The notes under the pieces are model-generated. The model saw only the letters and a list, made by a program, of their open reading frames with translations. It did no database searches and was not told where the DNA came from. DNA of 64,000 nucleotides from Candidatus Zixiibacteriota bacterium (GTDB lineage: Bacteria > Zixibacteria > MSB-5A5 > UBA10806), in assembly GCA_024641335.1 (NCBI GenBank), contig JAHEDG010000004.1, positions 1 through 64,000 of the forward strand. The letters run 5' to 3'. Positions 463-58,720 of this stretch are shown one piece after another. The stretch's first letter is position 1; each line of letters opens with the position of its first letter. The translations under genes were made by a program, and so were the position numbers.

Positions 463-1575
463 CTACTGATTTTTCATATAATCAAAAACCGCTTTCCTTC
501 CGGCCCTGCTCTCGATCTCGAGCATCTTATTCAATCCGTTGGAATATACGCTGCTGCCTTCGGTCATATTGGCGGCGAAGCTGTCGTAGCCGTAATACCG
601 GAGCGCGTAATAAGCGGTCCACTGGGCAAATCCCTCCCTATCGCTAAGACTCGCGTTGTTATCGCAATTTTCCGCCTGCCAGGCATGAGTAATCTCGTGA
701 GCCAATACCCAGATCAGGTCTTTCTTGCGCAGTCCGTACCTAACATAAATGTAAAATTTATCACCGATGCGGTAAAAAAGCCCGTTAAGATCTTTATTGG
801 AGCTTTTGCCTTTATCTTGAAGAAATTTCGAATCCCGAAGAGAGTAATCTATCGGATGCTTTATGGTCATACCCATATCCCCTTCGAGAAATCTCAAGGC
901 CATATCCTTAACGGGAGTAACCGACTCCGGCTGGAATAAAGCCTCGCTCCGGCAATCGCCGCAAAGATTCAGGCCATCATCGAGTTTTGTCCCGCCCGGT
1001 CCCGATGGCGCCCCGCAATCGGCGCAGGCCTGGTATCGAGCCACACAGTTCGAACAGAATTTCCTGCTCTGATCCCCCTCGAAATAATTATAGTTCTTTA
1101 AGATTATTCCGCGGCAGCTGTAACAACGCTGCGCCCCGGCCACGCATCGATCGCACAGTCCCGAATTGCCGATCGCTTCCGATGACTTGACCGGAATCCC
1201 GCATTCCAGGCATCGCGGCGACTTACTCTCGCACGAAAGACAAATATCGATTCCCAGGTCAGGATAAGAGCTGTAACCCCCGGTAATAGCCCGGCCGCAA
1301 AGAGCGCATTTACCCAGCTTGATATAGCAGTCGGCGCAAAAACTGATCTCTCCCACCCTGATTGCTGATTTGGTCAGTTTGCCGCACCCGGAACAAACCG
1401 AATATCTCGAATAACAATCCGCGCAGTAAACGGTATTACCAGGTCCCGCATAGTATCCGCCCGACGATTCCCGGCCGCAAAGATCACAGACCACAGTAGC
1501 TCCGAACACGGCTCCGGTCAACAAAATCAGACCAATTATTATAAGATGATATCTAATTAGAATCCCGGGCTTCAT
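463..1575 (-). CDS. Secreted LIM-like zinc-finger / DA1-like metallopeptidase
   Basis: A 370-residue protein with an N-terminal signal segment (hydrophobic residues about 7-25, cleavage near VFG-AT). Residues 28-215 hold a series of CxxC...CxxC modules (for example VCDLCG, CSGCGK, CALCG, CLECG, CYSCRG, CADCG) resembling tandem LIM/treble-clef fingers. The C-terminal third has a zincin motif HEITH (H293, E294, H297) followed by AW and a second acidic site, REGFAQW (E314). That order matches the peptidase domain of the plant ubiquitin-activated protease DA1 (HEMMHAW followed by EEG). The start has GGAG upstream and lies 12 bp after the isomerase-like gene, so the two are probably cotranscribed. 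A role as an exported or periplasmic metallopeptidase is inferred; no substrate can be read from the sequence. Confidence 0.8.
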   Translation of the reverse strand: MKPGILIRYHLIIIGLILLTGAVFGATVVCDLCGRESSGGYYAGPGNTVYCADCYSRYSVCSGCGKLTKSAIRVGEISFCADCYIKLGKCALCGRAITGGYSSYPDLGIDICLSCESKSPRCLECGIPVKSSEAIGNSGLCDRCVAGAQRCYSCRGIILKNYNYFEGDQSRKFCSNCVARYQACADCGAPSGPGGTKLDDGLNLCGDCRSEALFQPESVTPVKDMALRFLEGDMGMTIKHPIDYSLRDSKFLQDKGKSSNKDLNGLFYRIGDKFYIYVRYGLRKKDLIWVLAHEITHAWQAENCDNNASLSDREGFAQWTAYYALRYYGYDSFAANMTEGSSVYSNGLNKMLEIESRAGRKAVFDYMKNQ

Positions 1576-1587
1576 GACGATCTCCGT

Positions 1588-2400
1588 TCAATCGGGGTCC
1601 GGCTCCAAAGCCAGGTTTCGGAGGTATTCCAGCGATTTCAAAAGCTCGGTCTCAGGGAATATTTCGAGCACTGTATCTACGCCAATTGTATTCAGGATAT
1701 CGATATAAGCCGTCAGATTTACCCTGCCGCTGCCCAGGGTTTTGTGATCCCCGTTATCGCTGACATCATGAAGATGGGCCAGCCGTACATGCCTGATATT
1801 ATCCTGAAAAAATTTGATTATTCTGGTTTTATCCTGCGCGGGAAGAAGCTCCGTATGTCCGATATCCCAGACCAGTCCCAAACCGTCATCCTCGGCGGTC
1901 CGGGCTATTACATCGAGAAACTGCGGCGGGACAGCGTGAGTATTCTCAAAACAGATTTTAATCCGCCCGGCGGCGTGATCCAAAGCTCTCTTGATCGAAT
2001 CCTGAAAAAACCTGACATGCATATCCGGAAGCCGCTGCTCCATAAAAACAATCTTCCTCCGGGCGCTGGAATAAAACGCCAGTCGTCCCGGATGAAAGAT
2101 ATAATATTCCCCGCCCATATCCATGGCCAGATCGAGCATTTCGATATTCCGATCGATTCCGGCCCGGCGTATGCTTTCATGGCGGTTGAGCAGAGGGATA
2201 TCCGACGGGCCGTGGAAACAAAGACCCACCCCTTTATCTTTGTAAAGCTCCGATATCGCCCGTCGTTTCTCTTCAGAGAATTTTTCAGGAAAATGCCGGG
2301 AGGAATCGAGACTGATCTGGACCAGCTCGAAACCGTACTCGAAAGCGAATTCCGGGAAACGCTCCAGACCGTTTTCCATGGCGAACCCGGCAAAACCCAA
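1588..2400 (-). CDS. Sugar phosphate isomerase/epimerase-like TIM-barrel protein
   Basis: A 270-residue protein of the xylose-isomerase-like TIM-barrel superfamily (AP endonuclease 2 fold). Visible features are the first strand LGFAGFAMENG, the CFHGPSD strand with a metal-site His, YYIFHPG, the ICFENTH strand with a Glu ligand, LVWDIGH (Asp and His), VRLAHLHD and the terminal VLEIFPE. This His/Glu/Asp/His/Glu series is the divalent-metal set of the superfamily. The actual substrate is unknown. The start is uncertain: TTG at 2398-2400 has AAGG upstream; the frame is open further back into the neighbouring gene, and an internal ATG sits at 2377-2379. It lies between the secreted protein at 2433-3707 and the DA1-like gene in one minus-strand run. 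Confidence 0.8.
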   Translation of the reverse strand: MGFAGFAMENGLERFPEFAFEYGFELVQISLDSSRHFPEKFSEEKRRAISELYKDKGVGLCFHGPSDIPLLNRHESIRRAGIDRNIEMLDLAMDMGGEYYIFHPGRLAFYSSARRKIVFMEQRLPDMHVRFFQDSIKRALDHAAGRIKICFENTHAVPPQFLDVIARTAEDDGLGLVWDIGHTELLPAQDKTRIIKFFQDNIRHVRLAHLHDVSDNGDHKTLGSGRVNLTAYIDILNTIGVDTVLEIFPETELLKSLEYLRNLALEPDPD

Positions 2401-52630: not shown

Positions 52631-55012
52631 TTACTTCAATAGAGTAACCGCTTTTGACTCAACGAAATCACCGGCTTTTAGTTTGTATAAATAGACGCCG
52701 GAAGTAACACCGGAGGCGTTCCAAACAACTTCGTGATATCCGGCAGGTCTTGACTCGTTAAGAATTGTCTCGATTTTCTGACCTGAGAGATTGAATATTT
52801 CTATTTCTACATATGAATCCAGCGGAAGCGCGAATTCTATTATTGTTTGAGAATTAAAGGGGTTAGGATATGCGGAATTCAAAGCGAATGCTTTAGGTAT
52901 CTCCTCATTAGGAGAAGATTGCTTGGGAATCTTCGGGTCCGGTTCCTCCGGGACAACAACGGTAATAGTAACGAACGGAGGTCTCTCGGATTCAGCGTAT
53001 TGATTAAAGGCAACCACTGTATAATCGGCATCGTCAACCCAATATGCGATCGGACCGGGATGCGGCGTTGAAAATTCAATTTCTTCATATTGGTTATTCA
53101 GCGAAGGTAGAGACGCTATAAGGACCCAATCCGGCTCTATGCCATGAACCATTCGATATACAGCATACCCGTCTATTTCGTTTGTTGGACTGGGATTCCA
53201 GGTAATCAAGGGATGAAACGTTGGAGAGGGTGATACAGAGAGATTACTTGGAGGTTGCTGTGTGCCATCGGCCAGAATAGTAAATGCGAATTCGCAGTCC
53301 TGCCAGTGGTTTGGATACCAACCGAGATATGTTAAAGGCGGCCAAGCCCGAAAGCGCCAGACCTCATAAACGTAGGTACGCAGAGTCGCGCCATTTTGGT
53401 CGGAAGAGACGACTTCACATCTGCGAATTCCGTAATTAGGATCGGATGCCGACCAGCCATGCGTAAGACAATCTATGCCCCATACTACAGGCGTTGAAGT
53501 GATTGGGTCAAGCAAAGGTGGCTGGCAATCACAATCCAGATAGTTGAGATCGTAGAGAACTTCGTACCGTTTCACAATATAATTCCAATGGTCGGGAAGA
53601 ACCCGCGTTCCCGAAAATCGCCATTCTTGCCCCGGCGGGTCAGGATTAGCAAGGTACGGCATGGATCCCGCAGCAGTACATGTATAAATTCTGTTAGGTC
53701 GACTAATGAAATCCAATGCGGCCCCGGCATTCACTCGACCATAACCCGTTAGGTTGTCGTAACCCGATGGCGGTATGTCGACCGCAGTATTAACGATAAC
53801 GTATCTAAAATTGCTGCCGAACGCCGGAAGCTGGTTGTAAAAATCGAGGAGTCCTACTAAACCGCTGACATGAGGTGCGGCAAAAGACGTGCCCCCATCG
53901 TAGTTATAAGTGTTGCCAAAACTGGTGGAATAAATCTCGTGAACTGAATTTCCTTCCAGAGCAGTGCCGCCGGGCGCTACTACATCCAGGCCTTCGCCCG
54001 TACTGGAGAAATTGCTTTTTAAGTTTCTGTCTGTGAAGGCCCCTACGCTCAGAACCCAGTCACCGGGATAAGATGCCGGAAATAACGGCGTATCGTTAGC
54101 CTGATTTCCCCGGGCGGCGACGACCAGATGCCCCATATCATGAGCGATGCCGAATTCCTGATGCACTAAACTCTGGAAATCGAGCGATCCCCAACTGTTA
54201 TTCAGAACATCCGCGCCGCCATTTTGAATGGCATCAATCACCGAGTTGTAAATGTGAACTTCATCATAAGTATGGATGTCTTTTGAGTAAATCTAAGAAT
54301 TCCAGGTAACCCCGGCTATACCTTGCGCATTGTTCCCTTGCGCCGCCGCAATTCCGGTTACGAAAGTACCATGGCTGCTGAAATATTCACCCGGGCCATC
54401 GCCCGCAAGCCGGTCGGCATATTCAATATGTCCCTGCACTCCGTTGTCTATGATTCCTATTACTGTTGAGGCGTCGCCCTGAGTAAGATCCCATGCTTCC
54501 GGCGCATCGATATCAGCGTCAGGAACGCTTCCCTGATTCTGCCCGGTGTTATGCATGCCCCACTGTAGCGAAAAAGAGCTGTCATCCGGTTCGAACGCCA
54601 ACTGGCCGGTACCGTTTTTGTCAGAGAAATATACGTCCGGGTAGTCCTTGAGCTTCTCGTTAAGGGCATCTCTTTTCGCGGGATCGGCCAGATAAATTCT
54701 GTAGATTCTATCCAGCCGGGCTTGCCTGGCGAACAATTGCGGAAATCTACTTGACTGAATAATAGTATCGGCCGGATTGAAATCCGGAAAGGCGACTGTT
54801 ATAATCTCGGCGCTGCAGCAAAGAAGCGTCGCTTTCAACGAGTCCGGATTGAAAGTAACTTGACTTACCTGCGCCGATAAAGCGCCCTTAGGCATCTCTA
54901 CAACGTTTTCCGCAAACATGGTGATCACTTCATGGTCGTATGCGTCCGCGAGCAATTGAGGAGAAGTGCCAAAGAATAGGGCGATTGCGAGTAGAATTGA
55001 TCCGCTATTCAT
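52631..55012 (-). pseudogene. Secreted subtilisin-like (S8) protease with sorting domain, interrupted by one in-frame TAG
   Basis: A single frame of 794 codons with one amber at 54293-54295. Upstream (240 codons before the TAG): signal peptide, a propeptide-like part, the catalytic Asp in IGIIDNGVQG and His in SSHGTFVTGIAA, ending GVTWNS. Directly in frame afterwards: IYSKDIHTYDEVHIYNSVID, LNNSWG (oxyanion Asn region), VVAARGNQ, the catalytic Ser in GGTSFAAPHVSGL, an FN3-type domain and the sorting tail AYPNPFNSQT...KAVTLLK. The triad is split over both halves, so neither alone could work. The TAG sits where the family usually has Lys or another residue, one base from AAG or CAG. TAG is an ordinary stop elsewhere here. 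AGGAGG precedes the start. Confidence 0.88.
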
Positions 55013-57530: not shown

Positions 57531-57565
57531 AACGGGGGGAAGGATCAATCCCCCCGTTGTTTTTT
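57531..57565 (+). terminator. Rho-independent terminator between the YggN-like and selenoprotein genes
   Basis: AACGGGGGGA (57531-57540) and TCCCCCCGTT (57549-57558) form a perfect 10-bp stem with an 8-base loop; GTTTTTT follows. It overlaps the stop codon of the minus-strand gene. Confidence 0.92.
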
Positions 57566-58720
57566 ATATTCCAATAAACGCTTGAAATAATCGTCATTAG
57601 CCGGGTCCTCGTTGACTGCCTGCTGAATCATGCTTACGGCTTCGTCGATATTCCCTCTTTCATAGCAGATCTGTCCCAGAGTATTGAGAATCTTCCCTTT
57701 GAATTTTCCGGGCTGCGATTTATTCATAGCCTTGCGGGCCAGAGATTCGGCCTCCACTAAATTGATTTTTCTTTCCAGGCACCAATCGGCAAAGCGATAA
57801 TACTTATCGGGATTATTCTCCCAGCCAGCTCCCAGGGATGTTTTTTTTATCCTCAAGGCGGAGGTCGTATCCGATTTGCCATAAAGCGCCAGATCGGCCT
57901 CGAAATCCGCCCGGTAGCCGGTTAATTTTTTATCGCGGCTGGTAGAAACCGCATCCAGACCGGCTCGCAGGTATTTCTCGATTCTATCGGTTTCCTCCTT
58001 ACGGCGGGCTACTCCGCTGAATATCCGGGCAGCTTTGATAATATTCGAACTGCTTTTTCTCCCGGAGAAAATAACACTGTCGGCCGCGCTGATCAAAGCC
58101 TCGAATTCTATCTTGTCGTTCCAGACAGCGTTAGCCGTGTTCTCGAAAATCTCATATGAATAATCGATATTCGGCCGGTTGGAGAGCTTACCGGCCTGAC
58201 GGTAATAGTCGACCGCGTTCAGATAATCTCCGGTATCGGCGCTGTATTCGGCCATGAAGTAGGCGTCTTTGAAACTCGGATCGGTTTTGAGTCTTTTCTT
58301 TCGCTTTTCGACCGTGGTCAGATCGGCGGCGGCTTTTCGAAAAGATGTCAGAAACCTATCGGCCTGTGAAAAACCTGTCCAACGGCCGATGACACTTGCG
58401 GAACTATCGGTTAGAATAAAGACCGGGAAATATGATCCGACTTTATACAGTTTTTCCAGGTCTATCCCCTCCCCTTCCAATACATTAATGGGGATATGGA
58501 TCACCGTTTGGAAGGCTTCCTTAATTTTGGTATTGGTTTCCGCCTCACGGGCGGCCGCCTGACAGTATTCTCAGTCTTCTCGAAAAAACTCGATCAGAAT
58601 CGGTTTACCCTGCCGGGCGGATAATTTCTTAGCTTCATTTAATGTCGTGGGAGTTTGGGCCAATGCCCCCCCGGCCGAAACGAGTATAGCCGACAACGCG
58701 ATAAAATTTCTGATTTTCAA
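57545..58720 (-). CDS. Exported thioredoxin-fold/TPR protein, probable selenoprotein (TGA-encoded Sec in UxxC)
   Basis: Reading through one TGA (58571-58573) gives 391 residues. The TTG at 58720 has GGGAAGG upstream and a signal peptide KIRNFIALSAILVSAGGALA; ATG at 58744 is an alternative. The thioredoxin domain reads GKPILIEFFRED, then TGA (residue 50), EYC (Cys53), QAAAREAETNTKIKEAF, a VGSYFPVFILTDS strand with the cis-Pro, and a GRWTGF end. TGA stands exactly at the first Cys of CxxC. A C-terminal helical-repeat part with TPR character (PDKYYRFADWCLERKINLVEAE; ILNTLGQICYERGNIDEAV) follows. Termination at TGA would leave a 49-residue fragment. A hairpin with SECIS geometry begins 16 bases after the TGA. 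A chance Cys-to-stop mutation is the alternative. Confidence 0.78.
58540..58573 (-). promoter_or_regulatory. Candidate bacterial SECIS hairpin after the in-frame TGA
   Basis: On the minus strand, bases 17-31 after the TGA form CCGCC (58554-58550), loop CGTGA (58549-58545), GGCGG (58544-58540). This gives a 5-bp stem, a 5-base loop and a G at loop position 2, 23 bases from the TGA. Known bacterial SECIS elements have a G in the first two loop positions and a loop about 16-37 bases downstream. Confidence 0.5.

Follow-up and report, generated by a model that had tools for sequence, protein, structure and literature searches.

Does an in-frame TGA in a putative thioredoxin gene of Candidatus Zixiibacteriota stop translation, betray a broken gene, or encode selenocysteine (Sec), and what kind of protein would result? 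The TGA lies in the window, a stretch of 64,000 nucleotides of one draft genome. An earlier note on this DNA had proposed an exported selenoprotein at this locus and did not give the strand; here the feature was assigned to the minus strand. We conclude from comparative sequence evidence that UGA codon 50 is almost certainly decoded as Sec and that this is a genuine selenoprotein gene (probability about 0.95). The features are as follows.

58720-57545, minus strand: whole ORF, with a TTG start, 391 residues when the internal TGA is read as Sec, and a TGA stop.
58658..58720, minus strand: predicted signal peptide MKIRNFIALSAILVSAGGALA, read from the sequence, with cleavage expected before Q.
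58571..58573, minus strand: in-frame TGA read as the Sec codon, residue 50, motif U-E-Y-C.
58540..58554, minus strand: bSECIS stem-loop, with a 5-bp stem CCGCC/GGCGG and the loop CGUGA at 58549-58545.
58325..58642, minus strand: thioredoxin-fold domain, PF13899 Thioredoxin_7, 35.1 bits (cut-off 27).
58424..58426, minus strand: invariant Pro, residue 99, in 22/22 rows, the expected cis-Pro opposite the active site.
57554..58312, minus strand: all-helical TPR-like C-terminal domain, from Pfam, an AlphaFold2 (AF2) model and Foldseek.
57779..57781, minus strand: third conserved Cys, at residue 314; it lies within the TPR domain, in a motif of the type WC[LF]E.
4987-6147 of contig C12 of the same genome (G000): paralogue L049, with TGA, the motif U-G-S-C and a conserved SECIS-like hairpin.

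The start, ribosome binding site and signal peptide described earlier can all be read in the sequence. The TTG start (58720-58718) has a good Shine-Dalgarno sequence, AAGGGAAGG, 5 nt upstream. An in-frame ATG upstream of it is a second candidate start; the TTG is preferred because it is aligned with the ATG starts of homologues. Hydrophobic N-termini equivalent to MKIRNFIALSAILVSAGGALA are also found in homologues. The TGA (58573-58571) stands in the context EFFRED-U-EYC, at the first active-site position of the thioredoxin fold, so that its proposed place at the first Cys of CxxC was borne out. The long open frame claimed beyond it is also present, with 341 residues between residue 50 and the TGA stop at 57547-57545.

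Comparison with homologues showed which residues are tolerated at this site. We collected 52 loci, all from Candidatus Zixiibacteriota, which represent the family together with a close paralogue. The aligned codon is TGA in 39 and TGC or TGT (Cys) in 13, and nothing else occurs; thus the check for Cys rather than random residues, suggested in the earlier note, gave only Sec or Cys. The dipeptide within the motif varies among paralogues (EY versus GS and others). Parsimony on a tree of 49 rows requires at least 8 Sec/Cys changes, six of which are forced by well-supported branches, and therefore the exchange was repeated. Outside the phylum, five more matches were found in four genomes, four of them with TGA and a similar hairpin sequence. 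Genome G338, one of the four, has a TGA copy (L126) and beside it a paralogue in which the site is Ser (L125), which suggests that one copy has a changed redox function or has lost it. A scan of genome contigs with a five-row profile had matched Zixiibacteriota only; this does not prove absence elsewhere, because the profile patterns are narrow and distant members were later found. Searches for relatives in viral contigs and in plasmids gave no match.

These loci also bear on the two trivial explanations. In the first, a Cys or Trp codon was turned into TGA by mutation or sequencing error, leaving a broken thioredoxin gene. The genome is a draft of 98 contigs and a nearby subtilase gene has a nonsense TAG, which would be compatible with this; against it, the frame beyond the TGA is intact and conserved across all 39 TGA loci of the phylum, and four further TGA loci lie outside it. 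Where a homologous locus was flagged for an internal TAA or TAG, the codon was its terminal stop. A sequencing error is excluded because 39 loci carry the identical TGA, and we regard a pseudogene as extremely improbable. The chance is equally negligible that the downstream 319-codon GTG ORF is a separate TPR protein with its own start, since, although a table-11 gene caller would give an ORF at 57545-58504, this ORF starts inside the thioredoxin fold without the active site and the Cys homologues form one uninterrupted ORF.

The subtilase gene itself (55012-52634, minus strand; Peptidase_S8 with a secretion-tail domain) has the in-frame TAG at 54293-54295 in the context GVTWNS*IYSKDI, and its remaining frame is intact. 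Pyrrolysine was rejected as an explanation because PylS was not found in the genome, so this TAG is probably a nonsense mutation or a sequencing error. We also considered the region 463-2400 (minus strand), in which two adjoining genes in the same frame are separated by a TGA and 12 nt. This was rejected as a selenoprotein, as it looks like ordinary neighbours, a sugar-epimerase-like protein and a Cys-rich protein.

Folding confirmed the hairpin described in the earlier note, with G at loop position 2 and 23 bases from the TGA. The structure CCGCC-CGUGA-GGCGG spans 17-31 nt after the UGA, and the key G is at 58548. Taken alone, the window hairpin has a folding z-score of -0.11, and 5-15% of the TGAs throughout the window are followed by a comparable hairpin. 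Thus, a single hairpin is weak evidence; it becomes significant because it is conserved only in TGA-bearing homologues, with one Cys exception. Among the TGA copies 39/39, versus 1/13 of the Cys copies, can form a stem of 4 bp or more whose 5-nt loop covers nt 22-26 after the UGA and has G as its second base (Fisher p = 6.3e-11; the rows are related, so hairpin, covariation and codon counts are not independent events). The exception is L033, in which Cys is combined with a 6-bp SECIS-like hairpin and a CGUGA loop; it may be the product of a recent Sec-to-Cys change. Another Cys copy, L113, has the CGTGA loop and a broken stem.

Published criteria for a bSECIS element are a loop of 3-9 nt located 16-37 nt after the UGA, G in the first two loop positions, an upper stem of 4 bp or more and a minimum free energy (MFE) of at most -7.5 kcal/mol (PMC13188914). 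This geometry is found in all 39 TGA rows, and the MFE of the window gene is -12.1 kcal/mol over 60 nt from the TGA, within the limit. Among 37 distinct rows, five of seven stem pairs change on both sides, and in the closing pair the window copy has C-G where most others have U-A. The covariation score was 0.264 versus 0.173 ± 0.013 for shuffled alignments (0/500 shuffles reached 0.264), and slid versions of the stem scored at most 0.084. Furthermore, 34/38 copies use CGT for the Arg encoded in the loop, whereas further downstream these genes use CGT for 14% of their Arg residues. This indicates selection on the RNA and not on the protein alone. Sec copies retain the AARE block of the protein and most Cys copies do not, a clean example of an RNA element shaping local protein sequence.

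The genome also has the Sec machinery that the earlier note asked for. On contig C69, selB, selA, selD and the tRNA-Sec gene lie in this order within 8.4 kb (selB 355 bits; selA 440 bits; tRNA-Sec 68.5 bits, anticodon TCA). The selD frame (L048, 8516-9592) itself has an in-frame TGA, CAGUASKFSK. The motif UxxK is recorded for SelD in the selenoprotein inventory (PMC13188914) and the TGA is at the usual Sec position, which makes SelD of this genome a candidate selenoprotein too. In the window, 16 of 51 frames of at least 200 codons end with TGA as an ordinary stop, so TGA is not generally recoded. On this comparative evidence, the downstream bSECIS hairpin and the complete set of SelA, SelB, SelD and tRNA-Sec of this genome direct Sec insertion at UGA 50.

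The Sec machinery is a property of most of Zixiibacteriota, as selB was found in 117/133 genomes of the phylum. For the same reason, a test of co-occurrence with selB has little power. SelB was not found at E ≤ 1e-60 in six Sec-bearing genomes (G034, G048, G058, G109, G115 and G120), two of which have tRNA-Sec; this probably reflects incompleteness of metagenome-assembled genomes.

As weaker matches, we observed a shorter family (~300 residues) in the same phylum, exported or lipoprotein-like proteins with a thioredoxin domain and helical repeats (L038, L044-L047, L059-L063, L065 and others). The motif is often WUKWC, and at the site 25 loci have TGA (11), Cys (13) or Ser (1). Two other copies have CxxS. 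By simple criteria their hairpin is less uniform, and the case for these as selenoproteins is less complete.

Structural analyses agreed with the predicted domain order. In addition to Thioredoxin_7, PF13098 matched the window protein with 25.4 bits, just below the cut-off of 27, and TPR_2, TPR_8 and TPR_14 of Pfam matched close to the C-terminus. The AF2 model, built with 22 aligned homologues (mean pLDDT 91, pTM 0.84), consists of a thioredoxin fold and, after it, nothing but helices. Foldseek with this model matched TPR superhelices and, less strongly, thioredoxins. Thus, both the cis-Pro strand and the TPR-like tail expected earlier have their counterparts, the Pro in the alignment and the TPR domain in Pfam and the model. 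The closest solved thioredoxin domains among the profile matches listed are PDI-like 2kuc (2e-19) and DsbD gamma domains. The protein has the hallmarks of a thioredoxin-fold oxidoreductase, namely the fold, a motif of the CxxC type where a helix begins, and a Pro expected to be cis. The Cys at residue 314 is kept in 48/49 rows covering the position and could be structural or an additional redox partner.

What does the protein do? Given its combination of a signal peptide, UxxC, the invariant Pro and a TPR domain, we read it as a probable thiol-disulfide oxidoreductase of the envelope, whose TPR domain would recruit clients or partners. We consider the odds roughly even for an envelope oxidoreductase fed by DsbD. 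The protein would be exported via the Sec translocase and act in the cell envelope, where the selenolate of UxxC would attack client disulfides or oxidised thiols and the second Cys would resolve the intermediate. Clients or partner proteins may bind to the TPR superhelix, and the enzyme would probably be recycled by a transmembrane reductase of the DsbD type. The genome encodes DsbD with a C-terminal CxxC thioredoxin domain, which makes it a plausible electron donor. In the gene neighbourhood, no partner is kept beyond close relatives, and nothing points to a pathway.

A role in oxidative folding or isomerization (DsbA/DsbC-like) or in peroxide handling, in place of DsbD-fed reduction, is possible, if less probable. 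The best sequence match is annotated as PDI-like (2kuc), redox direction is not readable from sequence, and the motif dipeptide differs across paralogues (EY versus GS and others), all of which leave room for this role. However, DsbD gamma-type thioredoxin domains are also among the close relatives, and the low redox potential of Sec favours reductive chemistry.

We regard it as unlikely that the protein is a selenium-dependent envelope counterpart of CnoX, by analogy with which the TPR domain would hold unfolded clients and UxxC would protect or repair their cysteines. The domain order, thioredoxin then TPR, is that of CnoX (PMC8129009), and the AF2 model shows this architecture. However, CnoX was absent among the 60 sequence and 50 fold matches listed, and it is tied to cytoplasmic GroEL, against which the exported location argues. 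It is similarly doubtful that the exported thioredoxin-TPR paralogues of the phylum (UEYC, UGSC and the shorter WUKWC) are periplasmic chaperedoxins that together serve a phylum-wide selenium-dependent envelope proteostasis; in such a system the TPR domain would hold clients and selenium chemistry would repair their cysteines. The DsbD-fed envelope oxidoreductase remains our preferred reading.

Is the family new? The earlier note held that it is not a standard selenoprotein family. This is supported by an inventory from 2026 with 119 families and subfamilies of prokaryotic selenoproteins, none of them joining thioredoxin to TPR (PMC13188914), and by NCBIfam 20.0, which has no family for the window protein or for paralogue L049. 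A description of this thioredoxin-TPR selenoprotein was not found in the literature searched, exclusive of subscription papers. Since it is absent from all three, we class it as a new family whose architecture is also new, within a kind of protein that is itself well known. A phylum with almost no selenium coverage in the literature searched thereby gains a selenoprotein family with good support. Standard annotation would truncate such genes or call them broken. Furthermore, Sec and Cys have replaced each other at least 6-8 times in nature, which allows one to ask what selenium contributes to an otherwise similar enzyme.

Among known systems, the nearest in the inventory is the Trx7/PDZ (seleno)protein NF041199, which shares a Thioredoxin_7-type N-terminal domain and Sec/Cys exchange. 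However, it has a C-terminal PDZ domain and CxxU (PMC13188914), whereas the window protein has TPR and UxxC; the Pfam scan of the window protein found no PDZ domain, and the NF041199 model gave 12.9 bits (E 0.039) against a cut-off of 300, which places the protein outside that family. TsoB, the rhodanese/DsbD fusion-like selenoprotein (NF045694), weakly matches the thioredoxin domain of L049 (34.9 bits, cut-off 805) and has another architecture with two Sec (UxxxxU). The DsbD gamma domain and PDI-like 2kuc are without a TPR fusion and have Cys rather than Sec. Sec-containing thioredoxin (PF00085) and the thiol:disulfide interchange selenoprotein (PF13098) have UxxC in a thioredoxin fold, as here, and are listed without the TPR domain that the window protein has (PMC13188914). 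The chaperedoxin CnoX (YbbN) has the same plan, thioredoxin then TPR, and this is a similarity of plan only: CnoX has SxxC or CxxC (PMC8129009) and acts together with GroEL, which is cytoplasmic, whereas the window protein has UxxC and is predicted to be exported.
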